From: Levilactobacillus zymae
Lineage (GTDB): Bacteria; Bacillota; Bacilli; Lactobacillales; Lactobacillaceae
Assembly: GCF_032190635.1 (NCBI RefSeq)
Contig: NZ_JAVLAS010000001.1
Coordinates: forward strand, 1,240,001-1,304,000
DNA: 64,000 nt
Direction of reading: 5' to 3'
The notes beneath the pieces are model-generated. The model saw only the letters and a program-made list of their open reading frames with translations, made no database searches and had not been told where the DNA came from. The translations under genes were made by a program, and so were the position numbers. Shown piece after piece: positions 50,647 through 63,826 of the stretch. The first letter of the stretch is position 1. Every line of letters begins with the position of its first letter.

Positions 50647-51264
50647 GAAAAAGTTGACGTGGCAAGGGTGGTTATCACTAAGGTGACTGGGGGGCGGCCA
50701 AACGTTTGACGCAATTTTGGAATCTATTATTTTATTTTTTGCGCAGAGAATTTTACAAATAAAAATAAATTTTACAAATAAAAAAGCCGTGTTTGCACAA
50801 AATAGTCAATGTGGATAGAAATGAAATGCGCTGATTTTTAATCCTAAGACGCGTACGCCAGCTAATTTTCAAAACTATGATTTTGAAAATTAAGAATGAA
50901 AAAGCGTATTGCAAGTACTTACTTGCAGCATTTTAAAAGCCTATAAATTGTGGGATGTACAAGGATTTAAGATGATGTTTTTGAAAATTAAGACGTCGAT
51001 TAAAAATTTAATTTTCCGGAATAATTCGGCGTAAACCTGACAAACTAAAGATTTAATTTAAACAATTACAGTCAAATAATGTTCTCTGTTTAATGGTATA
51101 CATAGTGTATGTGTGCTAGTATAACTCAATAAATAAGCGATTATCGATTGATTAATTGGTACTAGCAGCAGGTTGTGCTGCTGGCGAATCGCTTATCTAC
51201 TTACTGAAATAATTATTCAGACTTATACCCCAGTGCAGATACAAGCTAAAGGAGGACGTCCTAA
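50647..51264 (+). promoter_or_regulatory. AT-rich, repeat-laden upstream region of the adhesin gene
   Basis: About 620 bases, much more AT-rich than its surroundings, without a gene. Direct repeats AATTTTACAAATAAAAA at 50749-50765 and 50768-50784. Inverted repeats TAATTTTCAAAA / TTTTGAAAATTA (50863-50892) with another TTTTGAAAATTAAG near 50980, and TGCAAGTA-CT-TACTTGCA (50910-50927). Promoter: TATACA (51097-51102), 17-bp spacer, TATAAC (51120-51125), overlapped by ATACA-TAG-TGTAT. Leader hairpin ATAAGCGATT / AATCGCTTAT with inner CAGCAG/CTGCTG (51133-51196). GGAGG at 51251-51255. Confidence 0.6.
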
Positions 51265-54200
51265 GTGAAATCCATGCGGAATAAAGCTGTGAACGGCGAT
51301 CCTAAGTTGAGATATAAGATGTTTAAGGCAGGGAAGGTTTGGGTTTTTACCGCCATCACGTCATTCTCACTTTTAAGCGCCCCACAGTTGACCGGACATG
51401 CGGATACGACCAGTTAGGCAGATGACTCAGCAAGCGTTGATTCGGAGAGTATGAAGCATACTTCTGGGTCGCAAGCATCCCTAACCAGTGGGACCACGAC
51501 AACCGATGCGACGACAACCTCATCGGCTAATTCACAAGCAACGACCACTAGCGAAACAGTTACTAATGAAGCGACAACGACTAATGACACAACGACTAGC
51601 AGTGCCAGCGCCGATAATCAAACGGTGGAAAGTACCACGGCCAGTTCAGCGGCAACTAGTGCTGCCACGACTGAATCGACAGCTAACGCCACGAGTGCCA
51701 CTACGGCTGCCACGACGACCGCAGCCAGTGCGGCGGCCACGGCGGCTAATCAGACCACCGATAACGCGGCGGCCATTCAATCGGCGGCCGCTAGTTTAGC
51801 GGCGCAAACGGTGACGGATGTCACGTTGACCACGAACGTGACCTCGGCGGTTAGTCGCACGGTGACCACCAAGAAGAGTGTCACCACGACAGTCGCGACA
51901 CCAGCGACTATTGATTCGACCAGTTCAGCTGCTACCGATGAGTCGAATTTCGATTCGATCGCTAATACGGTGACCAGCGCTGCGGCGGGGGCTTCATCGT
52001 CCGCGACGGCGGCTAACAGTTACGCCGAACTGGTCAACGTGACGGCCACGCAGACGGCCAATAGTGCAGCGCAGAGTGCTTATGCGGCCACTTCGACGGC
52101 CGCCGATTTGGCGTTGCATTACAATAGTTTGGCGTCCATGTATTTAAATGCGACTTCGGTATCGTCTAGCGCCGCAGACATGGCGACGAAATACGCGACC
52201 GCTTCGTTGGCCGCGGAATCTTACGCGTTAGTCGCCGTAAGTTATGCCAGTGATGCGTCCAGCGCGGCTAGTGCGGCCGAATTAGCGGCTGCGCAAAATA
52301 TCAAGGACCTAATCAGCAGCACCAACAGTGCCACGTTCTCGGCCGCCAGTGCGGCTAACGAAGCCGCTAGCACGGCTTCGGCTGCGGCCAGTGCCGCGTA
52401 CGAAGCCACGCAGTACGACAAGACCAATTCGGCGGCCTTATCGGCGTATTCGCAAGCTAACAGCGCCGCAATGGTGGCGTCCAGTGCGGCTATTACGGCG
52501 AACAGTCTTGCCAGCGCGGCGCAATCCGCTTACAACGCGGCCAATAGTGCGGCAACTAGCGGTGACTATTTAGCCGCTAGTGAGGCGCTGGTCACGGCCC
52601 GTGATTTAGCGAGCCAAGCTACGACCAACTACCAAGTTGCTAGCGACGCGGATAGTACCGCACAATCCGCTGCAAACGCTGCCATTGGAATGGCGGTCGT
52701 CAACGCCGCGAATTTGGCCAGCAGTAGTGCCCAGTTAGCTTCCAGTAGCGCAACGTTAGCTGCTAGTTACGCTAACGATGCCACCCAGTACAGCGGAGAT
52801 CAGTCCGTTCTGTACGCGTCTACTGCGGCCAGTTACGCGGTCGATGCCCAGACGGCATCCACGATGGCTAGTAGTGCGGCCGCTGCGGCGGCAGTGGCAA
52901 CCACCACTAAGGAAGCCAACTCCCTTTACCGGGTAGCATCTTCGGCAGCCAACACGGCCCAGGAAGCCATGCAGCAAGCCTCCAGCGCAGCGGCATTTGC
53001 CCAGTCGTTTGAAACCAACGTAACCAACCAGCAGACGGATACGGATAAAAACGTGACCACGACGTTGGCCATCGCAAACGATACGCTGAACGTGGGGGAA
53101 ACGATTGGGTTGACCACTAGCTTGCAAAATAGTGGGGGGTACTCAACGTCCAAAGTGACCTACACCTGGTACGTGTCTTCGGATGGTCAGAACTGGATCG
53201 CAGTTGACGGGACTAATAGTACTTATACGGCGACGATGAATACCGCCGGAACCTACTATTATCAAGCGGTCGCCAGCGGAAGCAAGACCTTAATCATAGG
53301 GACCTCGTCCTTCTCCTCGGCGTCTAACGTGGTGACGGTAGTGGTCACGGATGCCAAGGGGGATTACACGACCCAGTCGACCAGTTCGGCGAACCTAGCC
53401 GGCGAATACGCCTCGGCGGCAGCGGCAGCGGCCAGTTCCGCGGTCGATAACATGTACGAAATCGCGGACATGAGCGGGATCACGGCGAGTTCTGTGGCCA
53501 ATCAGGCCGTTAGCAGTGCCCAGGAAACCAACTCCTACGCCACGTTAGCCGAATCGGCGGCGACGGCGGCCAGTCAGGCGCAAAGCTTAGCGGCCGAAAA
53601 TGAAGCGAGCCGCAACTATGAAGCAGCCAGCTCCTACGCGGCTATGGCGGCGAGTTCGGCAACGGCAGCCAGTTCCTACAATGTTCTGACCAGTACGGCG
53701 GCAACTAAAACGTTGAGCTTAGTGGACACCGCCCTAGAAAAGGCGGCCCAAGGTGAGGGCCAAGAGGGCACGGCAGACTATCTGGCCTCCAGTTACGCGG
53801 CAGCCGCGTCGGCTTCAGCCAGCGCGGCGGCTAGTGCGGCCGTGGCGGCGGGATCACACGCTAACAATGCCAATAATGCCTACTCGTCGGCACCGGGGAT
53901 GAATTCGGCGGCCCTGGAGTATCTGAATCAGGCCAATTCTGCGGCCAGCACCGCCAGTTCCTTGGCGGCAGCCGCCAGCTCGGCCGCATCGTTAGCCGCG
54001 ACGTTTACGGGGAAAGATTTTGCCTCGGCGTCCAGCGCAGCAGATGATGCAAACACTTACCTGATTTTGACTAAAGATAATCTAAGCGCAGCGTCTAGTG
54101 CAGCGGCAATGACGACCAAAACAGTGGTTGACACGCAGTTCTCCTATGCCGCGTCCATGGCCAGTGCCGCGAGTGTTGCAAATTCGCTTGCCAACTCGAT

Positions 54201-55442
54201 GGGATACTCGGCCGCACAAGTGGCTAACTCTTTAGCAACGGCGAATACGGTGAACACCGCCTTAGGGGCTTCCTACACGGCTTTAACCAGTGCCTACGCG
54301 GAAGACGCGCAATCTGCGGCGACGTTAGGAATTGAAGCGGCTGCGGCAGCCAATAACTATATGACCATGGCATCTTCAGCCGTGGCGGCGGGTAACTTTA
54401 ATGAAGCGAGTTCCTACGTTTCAGCGGCCAATGAGTCGGTCGCAGACGCGAGTTCCTATGCGGTAGAAGCGACGGCCGCTGCCGAATTAGCAAGCTCGGC
54501 GGCCATCGAAGCTCAGGCTTACTCGAACAATCTGGATGGTGGAAAATTCATTCCTAACGGGGATGCCGGCACCTTGTTTGGCTGGGTCATTACCGGGGGA
54601 ATTACGCAACAGCCAACACCGGTTACCTCGACTACTTCGGGGAGCACGTTTACGTTAACGGGTGGTTCCAGAACCGGTTTAATGACAGTGAGCGCAACAA
54701 CTAAATCGTTCTGGTACGTGCAGTATGAAGGCGTTTGGTACGACATGGATACGGCTCAGGAAAAAGGGATTATCGAGTCTTATTCCAAGAAGAGTAACAC
54801 GAGCGTCTTGAACCTGGCGGATCTTTCTAACACGCTGACGGTAACCACCAAGAGCGACTTCACGGGAAGCTTAGTCTTCCAATTCCGAGGTGCTTACAGT
54901 TTGTCCCCTCAGCCACTGCCCGTATGGACGACAAACTTCTACAGTAATTTGGCTCAGGTTAACGTCTATGACAAGGACATCGCCGCAACAGGGATTGAAA
55001 TTTCCGGGGCAGATTACCTGTTAAATTCCTCATTGGGCGTTTACACGGCCACCACTAACCCTGGTAACGCCACGGGAACGGTGACTTGGTCCGTGAGTGA
55101 CGAATCTATCGCGACGGTGAACGAAGATGGGTTGCTGATACCGACCTCCGATACTGCGTTTGGTAAGGTCACGTTGACAGCAACGGTCACCAACGCTGAT
55201 GGGTCAACCTTCTCGGCCACTAAGGATGTGACGGTCGGCAATGGGTTACAAGATCAGACCGTTAATGCGGGTGAGACGGTGACGATGGAGCCGGTTGGAG
55301 GCATTAACGATACGTCAGACTTCACCTACCAATGGTATTATTCCAAGACTAATGCCACTTCCGGTGGGACGGCAATCGCAGGTGCGACTAGCTCAACGTT
55401 AACGTTGGATAGTGCTAAAACCAGTGATAGCGGATACTACTA
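51265..55442 (+). pseudogene. giant serine-rich-repeat adhesin, N-terminal part (amber codon and IS disruption)
   Basis: GTG 51265, nine bases after GGAGG, begins a signal peptide with the KxYKxGKxW-type motif (LRYKMFKAGKVW, residues 15-26; then FTAITSFSLLSA), the kind that sends serine-rich glycoproteins through accessory Sec. Codon 51 (51415-51417) is TAG in the same frame, one change from CAG, right after HADTTS. The frame then stays open for 4.0 kb: Ser/Thr-rich segment, Ala/Ser heptad-like stalk (SAAS.A..A), an Ig-like domain (LNVGETIGL...TYTWYVSSDGQ), second Ala/Ser stalk, a unique domain (GWVITGG...), a Big_2-like domain (TGTVTWSVSDESIATV) and a last Ig domain cut at TSDSGYY by the IS. 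The internal ATG 51451 has no proper ribosome site and no signal peptide. Confidence 0.85.
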
Positions 55443-55463
55443 GGTAGATTGTAAAATTAATCC

Positions 55464-55544
55464 GAACGCTGTTCGGACAAAAAAGATCAGCTTCCTTTAA
55501 AATGGTGTTTACCACAAACCCATCTTTTAGGAGCTGATCTTTTG
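55464..55544 (+). promoter_or_regulatory. hairpins sequestering the transposase start
   Basis: CCGAAC-GCT-GTTCGG is followed by a long stem: AAAAGATCAGC (55481-55491) pairs with GCTGATCTTTT (55533-55543) and CCT with AGG, with an inner ATGG/CCAT. The stem covers the ribosome site AGGAG (55529-55533) and the TTG start. Confidence 0.6.
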
Positions 55545-56471
55545 TCTAGTATAACCTATTCCGAACGAATTAAAATCGAAACCTTTTGTGAACTAGGGCT
55601 GTCCAATATCCAAATGGGCGTTCGGCTGAACCGATCACCGTCAACAATTTCTTATGAATTATCTCGATGTCAACCTTATCAGGCTGAATTAGCACAAACA
55701 GATGCCGAATACAAGCGATCACGATGTGGTCGGAAAACTAAGCTGAGCGATGAGTTAAAGCAAAAAATTCTCAACCATTTACGTCTAAGCTGGTCACCAG
55801 GAATGATTGCTCACGAATTTAAACTAGCTACTAAATCTATTTATAATTGGCTAAATCAGGGGAGAATTGATTTCTCCTTGAATGATCTACCTGAACATGG
55901 CGTACGCCAACGGCGTAACGTTGACCAACGATCCAAATATAATCAATCTTTGGGGCGATCAATTGAACAGCGTCCCATGATGATTAATCAACGTAATCGC
56001 ATCGGCGATTTTGAACTAGATACAGTCGTTGGTCCTCGTGGGCATAGTAAGGCAGTTTTATTAACTTTAATCGATCGAAAATCACGGTTCCTTTGGGCAT
56101 ACCGGTTAAAAGATCGAACGACAGCGAGTGTTAATGAAGCACTGACTAAGTTCCTAACAACTTTTAATGGACCGGTGCACAGTTTTACTGTGGACCGTGG
56201 TACTGAGTTTAGTGGGCTAGTATCATTTGAATCACAATATGGTATTAAGACCTATTACTGTCATGCTTATACGCCAGCTGAACGTGGTAGTAATGAACGC
56301 TTTAATCGGAATTTACGTTATTTTTATCCTAAGGGGACTCGTTTTGAGCACATTAGTGCTCAAGATTTAACGACGACGTTACTCCAAATTAACCAGCGAC
56401 CGCTTAAAATACTCGACTGGCAAACACCGTATCAGGTTATGCTGACCAATTTGTCCAAAAATTCGGATTAA
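55542..56471 (+). CDS. IS30-family transposase (copy 2)
   Basis: 309 aa, residue-for-residue the same as the protein at 8859-9788. End-binding helix-turn-helix at the N-terminus and the DDE core ([32 protein letters not shown]). TTG start, AGGAG upstream within a hairpin. The identity of the two copies says one transposed recently. Confidence 0.93.
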
Positions 56472-56485
56472 ATTTGCAATCTACC

Positions 56486-59400
56486 ACTATTTAGTGGTTA
56501 AATCCGGGACTTCCAGTATCACGTTAGGGGCCGGACAACTGACCGTAAATTCTTCTGCGGGTGAAGCGGCTTCATCTTCCGCTTCATTAGCCGCTTCGGC
56601 AGCCAATGAGGCCGGGGTTTATGCTAGCGTGGCTAGTTCTTACGGAAACGTTGCGAACCAATACGCTGACAAGAACTCAACGGCGAGTTCCTACGCGGAT
56701 CAGGCAGTCTCGGCTGCCGCGGTAGCCAGTTCGGCGGCGGATGCGGCTTCCTCAGCTGCGGCAGCTGCCTCGACCGCTTATGAAACGGCTAGTTCCGCTG
56801 AAGCTGCTGGTGATAACTCTGCGGCGTCTAGCTATGCTAAAGAAGCTTCACAGGCTGCGTCCTCGGCAGCTGAGGCTAAAGACAAAGCCTCAAGTGCCGC
56901 CAACGATGCTCATTCATATGCAGACTTAGCGGTGGCCGCGGAAGATCTATCAGAATCTGATAGTGATGCCGATTCGGATAGTGACTCGGATTCGGATAGC
57001 GACTCTGATGCAGATAGCGATTCCGATTCGGATAGTGACTCGGACACAGATAGTGACTCCGATAGTGATTCTGATGCGGACAGCGATTCTGACTCCGATA
57101 GTGATTCGGATTCAGATAGTGATTCTGACGCGGACAGCGACTCGGATTCGGACAGCGATTCCGACGCGGATAGCGACTCCGATTCTGACAGTGATTCTGA
57201 TACAGATAGCGATTCTGACTCCGATAGTGACTCGGACGCGGATAGCGATTCCGATTCCGACAGTGATTCCGATTCAGATAGTGACTCGGATTCAGACAGC
57301 GACTCTGATGCAGATAGCGATTCCGATTCCGACAGTGATTCCGATTCAGATAGTGACTCGGATTCAGATAGCGACTCTGACGCGGATAGTGATTCGGACT
57401 CCGACAGTGATGCCGATTCTGATAGTGATTCTGACTCGGATAGTGATGCCGATTCCGACAGTGACTCTGATTCGGATAGTGATTCCGACTCAGATAGCGA
57501 CTCCGACTCAGATAGTGACTCTGACGCGGACAGTGATTCCGATTCAGATAGCGACTCTGACGCGGACAGTGATGCCGATTCGGATAGTGATTCTGATTCA
57601 GATAGCGACTCTGACTCTGATAGCGACTCTGACTCTGATAGTGATTCCGATTCGGACAGTGACTCTGATTCCGATAGTGATTCCGACTCTGATAGCGACT
57701 CCGATGCAGATAGTGATTCGGACACGGATAGCGACTCTGATTCCGATAGCGATTCCGACTCTGATAGCGATTCTGATGCGGATAGCGATTCTGACTCCGA
57801 CAGCGATTCCGACTCTGATAGTGATTCGGACTCCGATAGTGATTCAGACTCGGACAGTGACTCCGATTCCGATAGTGATTCAGACTCTGACAGCGACTCG
57901 GACACGGACAGTGATTCCGACTCTGATAGTGATTCGGATTCCGACAGTGATTCCGACAGTGATGCTGATTCCGATAGTGATTCTGATGCGGACAGCGACT
58001 CCGATTCTGACAGTGACTCGGACTCCGATAGTGATTCGGATTCTGACAGTGACTCCGACTCTGACAGCGATTCGGATTCTGACAGTGATTCTGATTCTGA
58101 CAGTGATTCTGATTCCGACAGCGACTCGGATGCAGATAGTGGTTCAGACGCCGATAGTGATTCTGATTCCGACAGCGATTCGGATGCAGATAGTGACTCG
58201 GATTCCGACAGCGATTCGGATGCAGACAGTGACTCCGACTCTGACAGCGATTCGGATTCTGACAGTGATTCTGATTCTGACAGTGATTCTGATTCCGACA
58301 GCGACTCGGATGCAGATAGTGATTCAGACGCCGATAGTGATTCTGATTCCGACAGCGATTCGGATGCAGATAGCGATTCGGACTCTGACAGCGACTCAGA
58401 TACGGATAGCGATTCGGATGCAGACAGTGACTCAGATTCTGACAGTGATTCGGATTCAGATAGCGACTCGGACTCCGATAGTGATGCCGATTCTGACAGT
58501 GATTCGGATGCAGATAGCGACTCGGACTCCGATAGTGATTCCGATTCCGACAGCGACTCAGATTCAGATAGCGACTCAGATTCGGATAGTGATGCCGATT
58601 CCGATAGTGATTCGGATTCGGATAGTGATTCCGACTCTGACAGTGACTCCGATTCGGATAGCGATACCGATTCTGACAGTGATTCGGATGCAGACAGCGA
58701 CTCTGACGCGGATAGTGATTCGGACTCCGACAGTGATTCAGACTCGGATAGCGATTCAGACTCGGATAGTGACTCGGATGCAGACAGCGACTCTGACGCG
58801 GATAGTGATTCGGACTCCGACAGTGATTCAGACTCGGATAGTGATTCAGACTCGGATAGTGATTCGGACTCCGACAGTGATTCAGACTCGGATAGTGATT
58901 CCGATTCCGACAGTGACTCTGATTCAGATAGCGACTCTGACGCGGATAGTGATTCGGACTCCGACAGCGATTCGGACTCTGACAGTGACTCCGACGCGGA
59001 TAGCGACTCTGATTCCGACAGTGATGCTGATTCAGATAGCGACTCCGACGCGGATAGTGATTCAGACTCAGATAGCGACTCCGACGCGGATAGTGATTCC
59101 GACTCAGATAGCGATACCGATTCGGACAGTGATTCGGACACGGATAGTGATGCCGATTCAGATAGCGATTCTGACTCGGATAGCGATTCAGACTCTGACG
59201 GCGATTCAGATTCCGATAGTGACTCCGACACGGACAGTGATTCAGATTCCGATAGTGACTCGGATGCAGATAGTGATTCAGACTCTGATAGCGATTCTGA
59301 TGCGGATAGCGATTCAGACTCCGACAGCGATTCGGACAGTGATTCGGACACGGATAGTGATTCCGACTCTGACAGCGACTCCGACTCTGACAGCGACTCC

Positions 59401-62043
59401 GACACGGACAGCGATTCTGACTCGGATAGTGATTCTGACTCGGATAGTGATTCTGACTCAGATAGCGATTCGGATTCGGACAGTGATTCCGACTCTGATA
59501 GCGATACCGATTCCGATAGCGATTCAGATTCTGACAGTGATTCGGATTCAGATAGCGATTCTGATTCCGACAGCGATTCGGACTCTGACAGTGATTCCGA
59601 CTCTGACAGTGACTCGGACTCCGACAGTGACTCGGATGCAGACAGTGACTCCGATTCCGATAGTGATTCAGACTCCGATAGTGATGCCGACTCTGACAGC
59701 GACTCCAACGCGGATAGCGACTCCGATTCCGACAGCGATTCTGATTCTGACAGTGACTCGGACGCGGATAGCGACTCCGACTCGGACAGTGATTCCGACT
59801 CGGATAGTGATGCCGATTCCGACAGCGACTCTGATTCAGATAGCGACTCCGATTCGGATAGTGATTCGGATTCCGACGCGGACTCCGATAGTGATTCTGA
59901 TTCTGACAGTGACTCAGACTCCGACAGTGATGCCGATTCGGATAGTGATTCAGACTCGGACAGTGACTCCGATTCCGATAGTGATGCCGATTCTGACAGT
60001 GACTCTGACGCGGATAGCGACTCTGACGCGGATAGCGACTCCGATTCTGACAGTGACTCGGACTCCGATAGTGATTCGGATGCAGACAGTGACTCAGACT
60101 CTGACAGCGATTCGGATTCTGACAGTGACTCTGACACAGATAGCGATTCGGATTCTGATAGCGACTCTGACGCGGATAGTGATTCTGATTCCGACAGTGA
60201 TTCAGACGCGGATAGTGATTCTGACTCAGACAGTGACTCCGACTCCGATAGTGATTCGGATTCTGACAGCGACTCAGATACGGATAGCGATACCGATTCC
60301 GATAGCGATTCAGATTCTGACAGTGATTCCGACTCTGATTCCGACAGTGATTCTGATGCGGATAGCGACTCCGATTCAGATAGCGACTCCGACTCTGATA
60401 GCGATACCGATTCCGATAGCGATTCAGATTCTGACGGTGATTCTGATTCAGACAGCGATTCGGACTCTGACAGTGATTCCGACTCTGACAGCGACTCTGA
60501 TGCAGACAGTGATTCAGATTCCGACAGTGATGCCGATTCTGACAGCGACTCAGATTCCGACAGTGATTCTGATTCCGATAGCGACTCCGACACGGATAGT
60601 GATTCTGACGCAGACAGTGATTCGGACTCTGATAGCGACTCTGATGCAGACAGCGATTCAGATTCCGACAGTGATGCCGATTCCGATAGCGACTCAGATT
60701 CCGACAGTGATGCCGATTCGGATAGTGATTCTGATTCCGATAGCGACTCAGATTCTGACAGTGATTCTGACGCAGACAGTGATTCAGACTCTGATAGCGA
60801 CTCTGATTCTGACAGCGATTCAGACTCTGACAGTGACTCAGATTCGGATAGTGATTCCGATGCAGATAGCGATTCAGACTCTGATAGCGATTCAGACTCT
60901 GACGGCGACTCCGATTCAGATAGCGACTCAGACTCCGACAGCGACTCAGACTCCGACAGCGACTCTGATTCCGACAGTGATTCTGATTCAGATAGCGACT
61001 CCGATTCCGACAGTGATTCTGACGCAGACAGTGATTCAGACTCTGATAGCGACTCTGATTCTGACAGCGATTCAGACTCTGACAGTGACTCGGACACGGA
61101 CAGCGACTCTGATTCCGACTCTGACAGTGACTCGGATTCGGATAGTGACTCGGATTCAGATAGCGACTCGGACTCCGACAGTGACTCGGACGCGGATAGC
61201 GATTCCGATTCCGACAGTGATTCTGATTCCGATAGTGACTCAGATTCAGATAGCGACTCAGATTCCGACAGTGACTCGGATTCGGATAGTGACTCGGATT
61301 CGGATAGTGACTCCGACACGGATAGTGACTCAGATTCAGATAGCGACTCGGATTCCGACAGTGATTCCGATTCCGACAGTGACTCCGACACGGACAGCGA
61401 TTCAGACTCTGACAGCGACTCCGATAACAATTCTGGTAGCGGTTCTGGTTCTGGCGGAGATTCTGACAGTGACCTGGATTCCGACAGTGATTCTGATATT
61501 GACTCTGGTGGCGGTGGTGATCTGGGAGTCGATTCCGGAAATGGAACGGGTTCTGGCACTAACACCGGTTCTGGCGCCAACACCAGTGGTGGCACTAACA
61601 ATGGTGGTAACACGACCAGCGCAGCTACGGGCGGTGCTAATGCCACCGTTGCTCCGGTTAGCTACGGAACACCAGCATCTGCTGGTCAAACGATCACAAC
61701 GTCAGCAGTGCCAACTGCATTAGCTGCACCGGCAGGGACGACTGATGCGGCAACGACGGCAGCGCCGGTGGTTGATCTCACAGCAGCGTCAGCAACAGAC
61801 CAGGCTGTGAGTGACTCAACTGATAGTTCAAAGTCGCCAGCAGATAAGCAATCCAAGCAAGCCGCGGCTGGCGCAACGACGAGCGGGACGGCGGATGATG
61901 CCACGAATAGTGCTAACCAGACGGACCCAGCCAAGGAAACGAATCATGCCAAGACCCTTTGGGGCGCACTTGCGGCTCTGATTGCCGCTGGGGGCGGTTC
62001 CTGGTGGTTCTTCGGTAAGCGACGTAAGCAAAATGATAAGTAA
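56486..62043 (+). pseudogene. giant serine-rich-repeat adhesin, C-terminal part
   Basis: Continuation of the gene cut by the IS: the frame resumes [16 protein letters not shown] (end of the Ig domain), a third Ala/Ser stalk ([20 protein letters not shown]...), then a Ser-Asp tract of about 1,490 residues (56955-61425) with occasional Ala, Thr, Gly or Asn in place of Ser. A Gly/Ser/Thr/Asn linker and a Thr/Ala-rich wall-spanning stretch follow. The end has a membrane segment ([19 protein letters not shown]) and a KRRKQNDK tail, but no LPxTG motif in front of it. Rejoined, the gene would encode 3,243 aa. The piece has no ribosome site of its own. Confidence 0.85.
56955..61425 (+). repeat. Ser-Asp repeat tract with 18-bp codon-level period
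   Basis: About 4.47 kb of GAY alternating with Ser codons. Serine codons follow a fixed order, AGY-TCN-TCN, so the unit is 18 bp / six residues. Ala (GCG/GCA) and Thr (ACA/ACG) sit mostly in the slot just before AGY, GCC mostly in the slot just after AGT. Rare Gly (GGC/GGT) and Asn (AAC) are single changes from AGC/AGT or near it. All six frames are almost stop-free, making large shadow frames on both strands. Confidence 0.9.
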
Positions 62044-62102: not shown

Positions 62103-62132
62103 GATACGTCATAGGTCGAACTATGACGTATC
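62103..62132 (+). other. perfect inverted repeat between adhesin and next gene
   Basis: GATACGTCATAG-GTCGAA-CTATGACGTATC, 12-bp stem and 6-nt loop, no T-run. It could be an mRNA-processing or stabilising hairpin, an operator, or a Rho-independent-like weak terminator. Confidence 0.55.
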
Positions 62133-62172: not shown

Positions 62173-63826
62173 ATGAAAAAGTCAGCAATCAAAGAATTGA
62201 AAATGCACGTGGTAAATCTCGGAAACGTTCAGGACGTGGCGACGGGAACGGTACGGTTAGCCTTATCCGTTTCCGATAAGCGTCACCGAGCGACCGTGCA
62301 ATTTGTTCAAGGGACCAGCTTTAATCAGGCCTGGGACCAGATTGCTGACGCACTAGCGGCCACTCCATTGACGAGTTGGGTACGGATTGACGTCGTCCAG
62401 TCGATTCAACGGATCACGTTAGTGCAGTTACAGGAGAAATTGAAAGCGATGCCACGCATGAACTATTGGCGGCAAGGCGTCAGTTTTGATGCCGAATTTC
62501 ACACGGCGCTCCTGGAAATGGAAATCAACGGTCACGCCTTCTTTAAGCCCGGTCCACAACATAAGATTGGGAAAAACGCGTCGGCTAGCTGGATCGATTT
62601 CGCGGCCGTTCAACGGTATCTGACTCGGCGGAACGGCCAAACCGTGCCAGAGTTGACGCAGACGCCCTATGTCTGGACCTTTTTAACGGCGGGAATTTTC
62701 TTTGACGGGGACCAGATTTACGAATTAGACCAATCGGCGCCGAGTCGGGGGATTCGCCAACTCACCGACCTCAACGGAACGCTACGAACCACCATTGATG
62801 CGGGGGAACGGTTCCTACAACGACAGATCAAGCCTGATGGTAAGTTCATTTATGGTTACTATCCCGCCCAGCAGCGCATTCTTAGTAGTTACAATACCGT
62901 GCGGCACTTTTCGTCCATTTACGCCTTGTTGGAAGCCATCGCGTTTACGGGGCAGACGGCGGACCTACCGGCAGTCAAGCAGGCGATTCAGTGGGGCATT
63001 GACCAGTTGACCACCATCACGGACGGGGCCCGCTTCGTGGTGGAGCAACGTAAGAACAAGACGCCGGAATTAAAGTTGGGCGCGCAAGCCATGCTGATCT
63101 TAGCGCTCTGCAAGTACCAGGAGGTTGCGCACGATGAGGAGTTTCTTCCCGTTCTTTTGGAAACCTACCACGGCGTGACCCGATTCTTGCAACCGTCGGG
63201 ACGGTTCAATCACGTGTTGAACCCCGACCTGACCGTCAAGGAAGCCTTCCGCATCATCTACTACGAAGGTGAAATCACCTTTGCGTTAGCCCGGTTATAT
63301 CAAATTACCCAGGACGATGCCGTGGCTCACTTGATCCAACAAACACTTGATTTCATGGTGGCCCACAACTACGGCAAGTATCACGATCACTGGTTGTCCT
63401 ACGCCATTAATGAGGCCTTGCAGATCTTTCCGGCCAACCGAGACTATATGCAGATGGGCCTGCAAAACGTTTACGACCATCTAACCTTCATCGAGCAACG
63501 GGACACGGCGTACCCGACGTTACTCGAATTGCTGAACGCGGCGGTCAAGATGACCGACGTGATCAAGCGCACTGGTAATGAGGATTTGTTGGAACCATAC
63601 GATCTCGGTCGGTTGCGGCAGGCATGGCGCTACCGGGCCGGTTACGAACTATTGACCGGCAGCTTCCAGCCGGAGTTAGCGATGTACTTCTACTATCCCG
63701 AAAAGTTTATCGGGGGGGTTCTTTGCCCGCCACGATAATTTCCGGACCAGAATCGACGACTGTGAACACTTCCTTTCCGGGTTGATCAACTACTACGACT
63801 ACGCGAATCAAGGGGGGATTAGATGA
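62173..63826 (+). pseudogene. unknown alpha-helical protein of the adhesin locus, frameshifted at a G7 run
   Basis: ATG 62173 with AGGAGGGTG. The frame as it stands ends at 63738 (521 aa, ending FIGGVLCPPR). With one G fewer in the run at 63712-63718 it reads FIGGFFARHDNFRTRIDDCE...GLINYYDYANQGGIR and stops at 63824-63826, overlapping the next ATG by ATGA, so this is the ancestral end (about 550 aa). The protein is soluble with repeated helix pairs (DLPAVKQAIQWGIDQL, AQAMLILALCKYQEV, GEITFALARLYQITQDDAV) suggesting an alpha/alpha-toroid like those of glycosidases or epimerases; I do not recognise the family. Location suggests a role in making or decorating a surface polymer. Confidence 0.65.

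Follow-up and report, generated by a model that had tools for sequence, protein, structure and literature searches.

How should a gene be read that begins like that of a giant surface protein, meets a stop at codon 51 and is later split by a mobile element? The window, a stretch of 64,000 nucleotides of Levilactobacillus DNA, contains such a gene on its forward strand. Very probably, a gene for a giant adhesin-like surface protein, one that much of the genus conserves, has recently been inactivated here: a TAG codon and, independently, a copy of ISLpl1 have hit it, and the next gene has a frameshift as well. The locus reads as ordinary gene loss, because close relatives keep the gene whole.

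Anatomy of the gene and its lesions

The signal-peptide part (51265 to 51414, plus strand, as are all features given below) has a GTG start with AGGAGG upstream, and it matches the Pfam family KxYKxGKxW_sig with 49.7 bits (cut-off 23.6). It is followed directly by the TAG codon (51415 to 51417). Beyond this, the N half (51418 to 55442) is composed of a Ser/Ala-rich region and then, at the interrupted end, an Ig-like domain whose match to Ig_3 lies below the cut-off. The C half (56490 to 62043) holds the remaining Ig-like part, a Ser/Ala-rich part, about 1,500 residues of SD repeats (about 56956 to 61497), a linker, a membrane segment and the stop codon, and 1,327 SD/DS dipeptides were counted in this part of the protein. 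The intact form of the gene is a serine-aspartate-repeat surface protein, and this architecture suggests that the intact protein would act as a giant adhesin. No LPxT occurs in the C part of the protein in this genome, nor does LPxT[GASDN] in the last 120 residues of the six relatives (of eight regions) that could be read to the end. The C-terminal end has only a sub-threshold match to Gram_pos_anchor, and in the relatives the protein ends in a membrane segment with a basic tail.

Upstream of the gene is a structured 5' leader (51133 to 51196) formed by a long stem with an inner hairpin. When the upstream regions of this genome and L. zymae were aligned and pieces of 144-145 nt were folded, a similar structure was found in both, with minimum energies of -34.6 kcal/mol here and -31.0 kcal/mol in L. 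zymae.

The element between the two halves (55443 to 56485; 1,043 bp) is flanked by copies of the target duplication ACTA (55439 to 55442 and 56486 to 56489), and its ends match at 22 of 26 positions. It encodes one 309-aa transposase (55542 to 56471) with rve and HTH_38 domains. A single transposase with an rve core, imperfect inverted ends and a short target duplication place it in the IS30 family, and the name ISLpl1 is taken from the annotation of matching plasmid records. For this genome 25 full-length copies are listed, 24 of them at 99.9-100% identity and 21 with a 4-bp direct repeat. Since 1,043 + 4 = 1,047 is divisible by three, the two halves of the adhesin lie in one reading phase, a point settled arithmetically rather than by joining them, and the restored length is (10,779 - 1,047)/3 = 3,244 codons. 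No in-frame lesion other than the element was seen after the TAG.

An earlier, sequence-only reading of this DNA had described the GTG start at 51265 with its AGGAGG, the signal peptide, TAG at codon 51 and the ACTA-flanked IS30 element, all of which are present in the sequence. It had also proposed that removing the element and one ACTA restores a frame of 3,244 codons, with which the arithmetic agrees; the L. zymae DSM 19395 orthologue is a single open frame of 3,362 codons. Its further claim, that either lesion alone would prevent display, holds in part. The nonsense codon would stop translation right after the signal peptide. However, the insertion alone would part the front region from the stalk and anchor, and so would stop anchoring but not necessarily secretion, because the SD stalk and membrane anchor would be lost while the signal peptide is kept. 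With both lesions in place, surface display has probably been lost.

Intact relatives and the age of the inactivation

Comparison at the genus level, using one genome per species, indicates that the gene is ordinarily whole. The N half is matched in 30 of 35 Levilactobacillus genomes (own included) with no stop inside the match, and all 35 genus matches with E below 1e-100 (own included) are free of internal stops. A scan of genome contigs gave four loci, from which the weak L049 and L050 (other phyla, E 2e-4 and 5e-4) were left aside. In the relatives whose signal peptide could be read together with the body of the protein, the two are in frame with no stop between them (19/19). Given the intact L. 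zymae orthologue and these stop-free matches, the open frame of the adhesin is not a product of chance. The sequence-only reading had expected an intact gene in some strains of the species; at the level of relatives, L. zymae has one.

That reading had also supposed that the nonsense mutation is recent, if not occasionally suppressed or reverted, and both the intact relatives and the codon evolution of the gene support recency. Between this genome and L. zymae, dS is 0.216 and dN 0.0195 (dN/dS 0.09). There are 66 silent and 22 replacement changes on the own branch against 59 and 25 on the L. zymae branch, with 67 changes unpolarised, and the own branch shows no excess of replacements over the other (Fisher P 0.50). 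When the fraction of the own branch over which the gene has been dead was modelled, the median was 2.4% and the 95% upper limit 8%. Because codon evolution here resembles that of L. zymae, we conclude that the gene died late, and we take the absence of visible relaxed constraint to mean that the event is too recent to show. An old pseudogene was considered and rejected on the same data.

Unrelaxed codon evolution would fit a still-working gene as well. Another suggestion is that the TAG is occasionally suppressed or read through at a low level, such that some product is made. The frame that stays open beyond the TAG, interrupted only by the element, speaks for such readthrough, but recency suffices to explain it. 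Furthermore, ARAGORN called 62 tRNAs, not one with the anticodon CUA, and a 63rd tRNA hit from Rfam is degenerate and plasmid-borne. TAG is an ordinary stop in this DNA, ending 14 of the 64 mechanically called ORFs with at least 150 codons when the broken locus is excluded (15 of 69 when it is included, five of the 69, one of them counted twice, belonging to the locus). Even with readthrough, the element would still separate the stalk and anchor from the front. For want of a CUA tRNA among those called and with TAG in ordinary use, suppression is highly improbable, and we have discarded it as an explanation.

The next gene and rival accounts of the lesions

The gene that follows the adhesin (62173 to 63738), with a product of 550 aa in L. 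zymae, has a frameshift in a run of G around 63712-63718, a lesion that the sequence-only reading overlooked and that would damage its product. A hairpin with a 12-bp stem between the two genes (62103 to 62132) is present too in L. zymae and L. acidifarinae. By sequence the 550-aa protein has no solved relative (best E 0.14). A model of its structure built from two sequences has a mean pLDDT of 45 and no PDB match at E 0.001 or less; its best structural matches at this pLDDT are a GH76 enzyme (E 4.5e-3) and then cellobiose 2-epimerases, a weak lead by which the product is possibly an alpha/alpha-toroid sugar enzyme. Two GT4 glycosyltransferase genes also lie downstream of the adhesin. Their best matches are SdgA/SdgB, with scores of 218.5 and 283.2 that are far under the NCBIfam cut-off of 800, and the SdgA/SdgB/GtfA-like enzymes at this locus are all under curated cut-offs. 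From their resemblance and position, the two GT4 enzymes probably glycosylate the SD repeats.

The frameshift is the less certain lesion, because the assembly contains indel errors: the chromosome contig has 5,985 bp of overlap between its two ends, in which there are three indel places. This, together with the position of the frameshift in a homopolymer, gives some substance to the idea that part of the lesions are sequencing or assembly errors. Indel errors could explain the G-run frameshift, but the same overlap is free of substitutions, such that a change like TAG is harder to explain in this way, and the element has a clean target duplication. Around the locus, moreover, all 14 other genes compared are collinear with L. 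zymae and in one frame, which leaves the adhesin and the next gene as the sole broken ones (the count covers distinct genes; two overlapping out-of-frame ORFs were not counted, and the comparison required at least 70% identity). We therefore regard this account as quite improbable. A reversible on/off switch, with the element or the G run as a contingency device, has even less in its favour. IS elements are mobile, and a run of G is in principle prone to slippage; in addition, the next gene is likewise in two pieces in two other genomes (G004 and G016), and in a congener (G033) the signal peptide of a paralogue is out of frame with its body. However, these cases may be draft-assembly errors, a nonsense substitution is no switch, and no inverting or repeat-based device came to notice in passing, so this possibility can hardly be entertained.

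The simplest course would be ordinary loss, in which a first hit inactivated the gene and, with constraint relaxed, others came after it in a genome rich in near-identical ISLpl1 copies.

Possible selected loss and known systems

The sequence-only reading held that the loss was probably selected, for example through domestication or phage exposure. This does not follow from the two lesions, because a dead gene gathers further hits freely, and once the first is present several in one gene are to be expected. None of our results speaks to domestication or phages. Better support for selection, though still weak, comes from the KxYKxGKxW genes of the genome, of which six were found and three are interrupted: the adhesin gene (C1:1291265) and the gene at C1:709641-719855 by ISLpl1, and that at C1:700351-706194 by a 283-bp MITE-like repeat. 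Another copy of ISLpl1 lies upstream of the gene at C1:695607, its end 75 bp away. The six genes make up 1.9% of the genome, such that 25 copies should produce 0.47 hits by chance; the probability of two or more is 0.08, and that of three or more, with 100 bp upstream included, is 0.013. However, this is a post hoc test that in its first form falls short of significance and takes no account of the immunity of essential genes to hits. Also, a serine-rich protein (SRRP) of about 8,346 codons, larger than the other five, shows no lesion beyond a contig-end artefact; its apparent truncation in C1:260-15940 reflects untrimmed contig overlap. A selective cause is possible, but that this strain has been shedding several KxYKxGKxW proteins under positive selection through mobile-element hits seems unlikely. 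Rather unlikely, too, is the broader proposal that Levilactobacillus has an adhesin system of its own (giant SD-repeat protein with a KxYKxGKxW signal and an LPxTG-free membrane end, dedicated SdgA/SdgB-like enzymes and a 550-aa partner) and that shedding of it, and of KxYKxGKxW proteins generally, is under selection in this strain via ISLpl1 and MITE insertions.

With ordinary loss as the preferred reading, the locus shows the recent loss of an adhesin by a food-type lactobacillus in a clean form, and the near relative L. zymae offers an intact gene to compare it with. The locus also draws attention to a conserved and little-studied SD-repeat adhesin and glycosylation system in Levilactobacillus. 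Our literature search found no paper that joins Levilactobacillus with the serine-aspartate repeat, and no direct precedent.

The gene is a pseudogenised lactobacillus adhesin, an already known kind. Like the serine-rich repeat proteins of the accessory-Sec system, the adhesin has a KxYKxGKxW signal, and the genome encodes a giant SRRP, SecA2, SecY2 and Asp1-3 with scores over curated cut-offs, and a GtfA-like enzyme that scores below its own; an orphaned accessory-Sec system was considered and rejected, since these components are kept. In contrast to those proteins, the adhesin is encoded away from the Sec genes (SecA2 at C1:17527, SecY2 at C1:2628837) and is neighboured by other glycosylation-type genes. 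In passages of two papers, SRRP adhesin genes are described as pseudogenised in lactobacilli such as L. reuteri I5007 (PMC4667477, PMC6973325), and IS30-family elements as prominent in L. reuteri ATCC 53608 (PMC4667477). As far as those passages go, the cases are alike in that very large, repeat-rich surface genes are broken in single strains and whole in relatives, whereas the present gene differs in its Ser-Asp repeats, its place outside the SecA2/SecY2 cluster, its several lesions and an estimate of recency. The other comparison is with the staphylococcal Sdr/Clf proteins and SdgA/SdgB, as portrayed in part of PMC3794999. Relative to that portrayal, the adhesin lacks LPxTG, has a KxYKxGKxW signal and a Ser/Ala-rich front, and its neighbouring glycosyltransferases score far under the cut-offs, but it shares the long SD-repeat stalk and is accompanied by two GT4 enzymes whose best matches are SdgA/SdgB.

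Anatomy of the interrupted putative adhesin gene

All the features read from the sequence alone are present in the gene at window positions 51265..62043, whose product we take to be an adhesin. AGGAGG precedes a GTG start codon at 51265, a KxYKxGKxW-type signal peptide follows, and codon 51 is a TAG (51415-51417). Further downstream, a 1,043-bp copy of the IS30-family element ISLpl1 (55443-56485), flanked on both sides by ACTA, separates an N half (51418..55442) from a C half (56490..62043). The 1,043 bp plus 4 bp make a multiple of three, which puts the two halves in one phase and yields the proposed count of 3,244 codons after deletion of the element and one ACTA. The N half terminates at a TAG (55441-55443) that arises at the junction with the element.

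The gene is present in two named relatives, L. zymae DSM 19395 (L047) and L. acidifarinae DSM 19394 (L048), with which the window shares 86.8% identity across 14.1 kb and 79.5% across 13.7 kb, respectively. These identities make it likely that the host is a Levilactobacillus of a different species from L. zymae; judging by its genus, it would be a food-type organism. The window corresponds to C1:1240001-1304000 of its genome, which comprises 2.89 Mb in eight contigs; on one of these, a 38.8-kb contig that is probably a plasmid, a tRNA-Ile (anticodon TAT) adjoins a degenerate tRNA (C4:21529-21677, L057).

In L. zymae, the orthologue reads as a single open frame of 3,362 codons; its start codon is the one used in the host, and the two signal peptides agree at each of their first 50 residues. 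Across the genus, the N half is matched in 30 of 35 genomes (the host included), and none of the 35 match places with E < 1e-100 contains a stop inside the match. In all 19 relatives read, each at its best locus and drawn from the 29 relatives matching the N half, the signal peptide continues in frame into the body. KxYKxGKxW signals had 361 matches in 35 genomes across the genus. One other Levilactobacillus contains a second adhesin-like gene (L096, G033:C1:176000-177200) in which signal peptide and body lie in different frames, with an open frame of 150 codons; this counts against the uniqueness of the broken gene described here.

Age of the inactivation

The proposal that inactivation is recent is supported by the N half, where dS between the host and L. 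zymae is 0.216 and dN is 0.0195. When changes were polarised with L. acidifarinae, the host branch carried 66 silent and 22 replacement changes, against 59 and 25 on the L. zymae branch; a further 67 were unpolarised. A simple model that uses the N half only and assumes silent sites to be neutral places the median dead time at 2.4% of the host branch (95% upper limit 8%). The accompanying suggestion that the TAG is occasionally suppressed is not supported; selection for loss of the adhesin is possible.

Predicted protein and neighbouring genes

The intact protein starts with the KxYKxGKxW signal and continues with a Ser/Ala-rich region and an Ig-like domain (scoring under the Pfam cut-off); a long Ser-Asp (SD) repeat stalk, ~1,500 residues in the host, leads to a C-terminal membrane segment. 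LPxTG is absent from the C end in the host and in the six relatives readable to the end (eight regions examined). A membrane end of the TLWGA... type without this motif occurs at window 61900-62043 and in six relatives. A structured 5' leader of the mRNA (51133-51196) has a similar fold in L. zymae, and by eye several differences between the two preserve pairs or give G-U pairs.

Downstream lie a 550-aa gene, two GT4 enzymes, a HAD phosphatase, a kinase-like protein, a nucleotidyltransferase, a CapA-like protein and a 623-aa protein of unknown function. The GT4 enzymes are closest to SdgA/SdgB and then GtfA, all under cut-offs, and by analogy with the staphylococcal case (PMC3794999) they probably glycosylate the SD stalk. 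Between the adhesin and the 550-aa gene is a hairpin with a 12-bp stem (62103-62132), present in three species and with no T run directly after it.

The 550-aa gene (62173-63738; length as in L. zymae) is split at a G run in the host: residues 1-518 of the L. zymae protein match at contig positions 1302173-1303726, and residues 508-550 match in another frame at 1303695-1303823. It occupies one frame in L. zymae and L. acidifarinae and is in two pieces in three other genomes (G004 and G016, on a single contig each, and G020, on two contigs). The other 14 genes examined round the locus are all collinear with L. zymae, each in one frame. The 5,985-bp overlap of the chromosome contig ends has three indel places and no substitutions, evidence of indel errors in the assembly that makes the frameshift a less secure lesion than the adhesin TAG. 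The 550-aa gene is found in 25 of 35 genomes and adjoins the adhesin in six of eight relatives' regions; in the other two (L080 and L081) it is missing and other glycosyltransferases lie nearby.

ISLpl1 and the KxYKxGKxW genes of the host

We examined all 25 listed full-length ISLpl1 copies, 24 of which are 99.9-100% identical and one 97.9%. Flanking repeats are 4 bp in 21 copies, 3 bp in one and lacking in three. Six copies sit in a reading frame that stays open for 70 codons or more on each side, and of the six, two interrupt KxYKxGKxW genes (the window adhesin and the gene at C1:709641-719855).

Three of the six KxYKxGKxW genes found in the host are interrupted: the window adhesin; a serine-rich gene at C1:709641-719855 (L053, L095), open on both sides of an ISLpl1 copy with target repeat TTAC; and a serine-rich gene at C1:700351-706194 (L053:5852-11695), which is split by a MITE-like repeat of 283 bp that has inverted ends and whose region yields 36 matches across the genome, counting fragments and the self-match. 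In a fourth of the six, at C1:695607, an ISLpl1 copy ends 75 bp upstream of the start. No lesion was seen in the gene at C1:2482475-2485642 or in a giant serine-rich repeat protein (SRRP) gene of ~25 kb beside the SecA2 and Asp1-3 genes. The latter runs from L054:1-15940 (-) to L087:10287-19001 (-) at the chromosome contig ends; its break is an artefact of their untrimmed overlap, and arithmetic across these ends gives ~8,346 codons. The chance of at least two of the 25 copies falling in the six genes is 0.08, or 0.013 for at least three when 100 bp upstream is counted, and in this post hoc test the excess is suggestive at best.

SRRP pseudogenes are recorded in lactobacilli (PMC6973325, PMC4667477). 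One is that of L. reuteri I5007, and a prominent presence of IS30 elements is noted for L. reuteri ATCC 53608 (both PMC4667477). Adhesin pseudogenisation in lactobacilli is therefore a known phenomenon, of which the present locus is a new instance.
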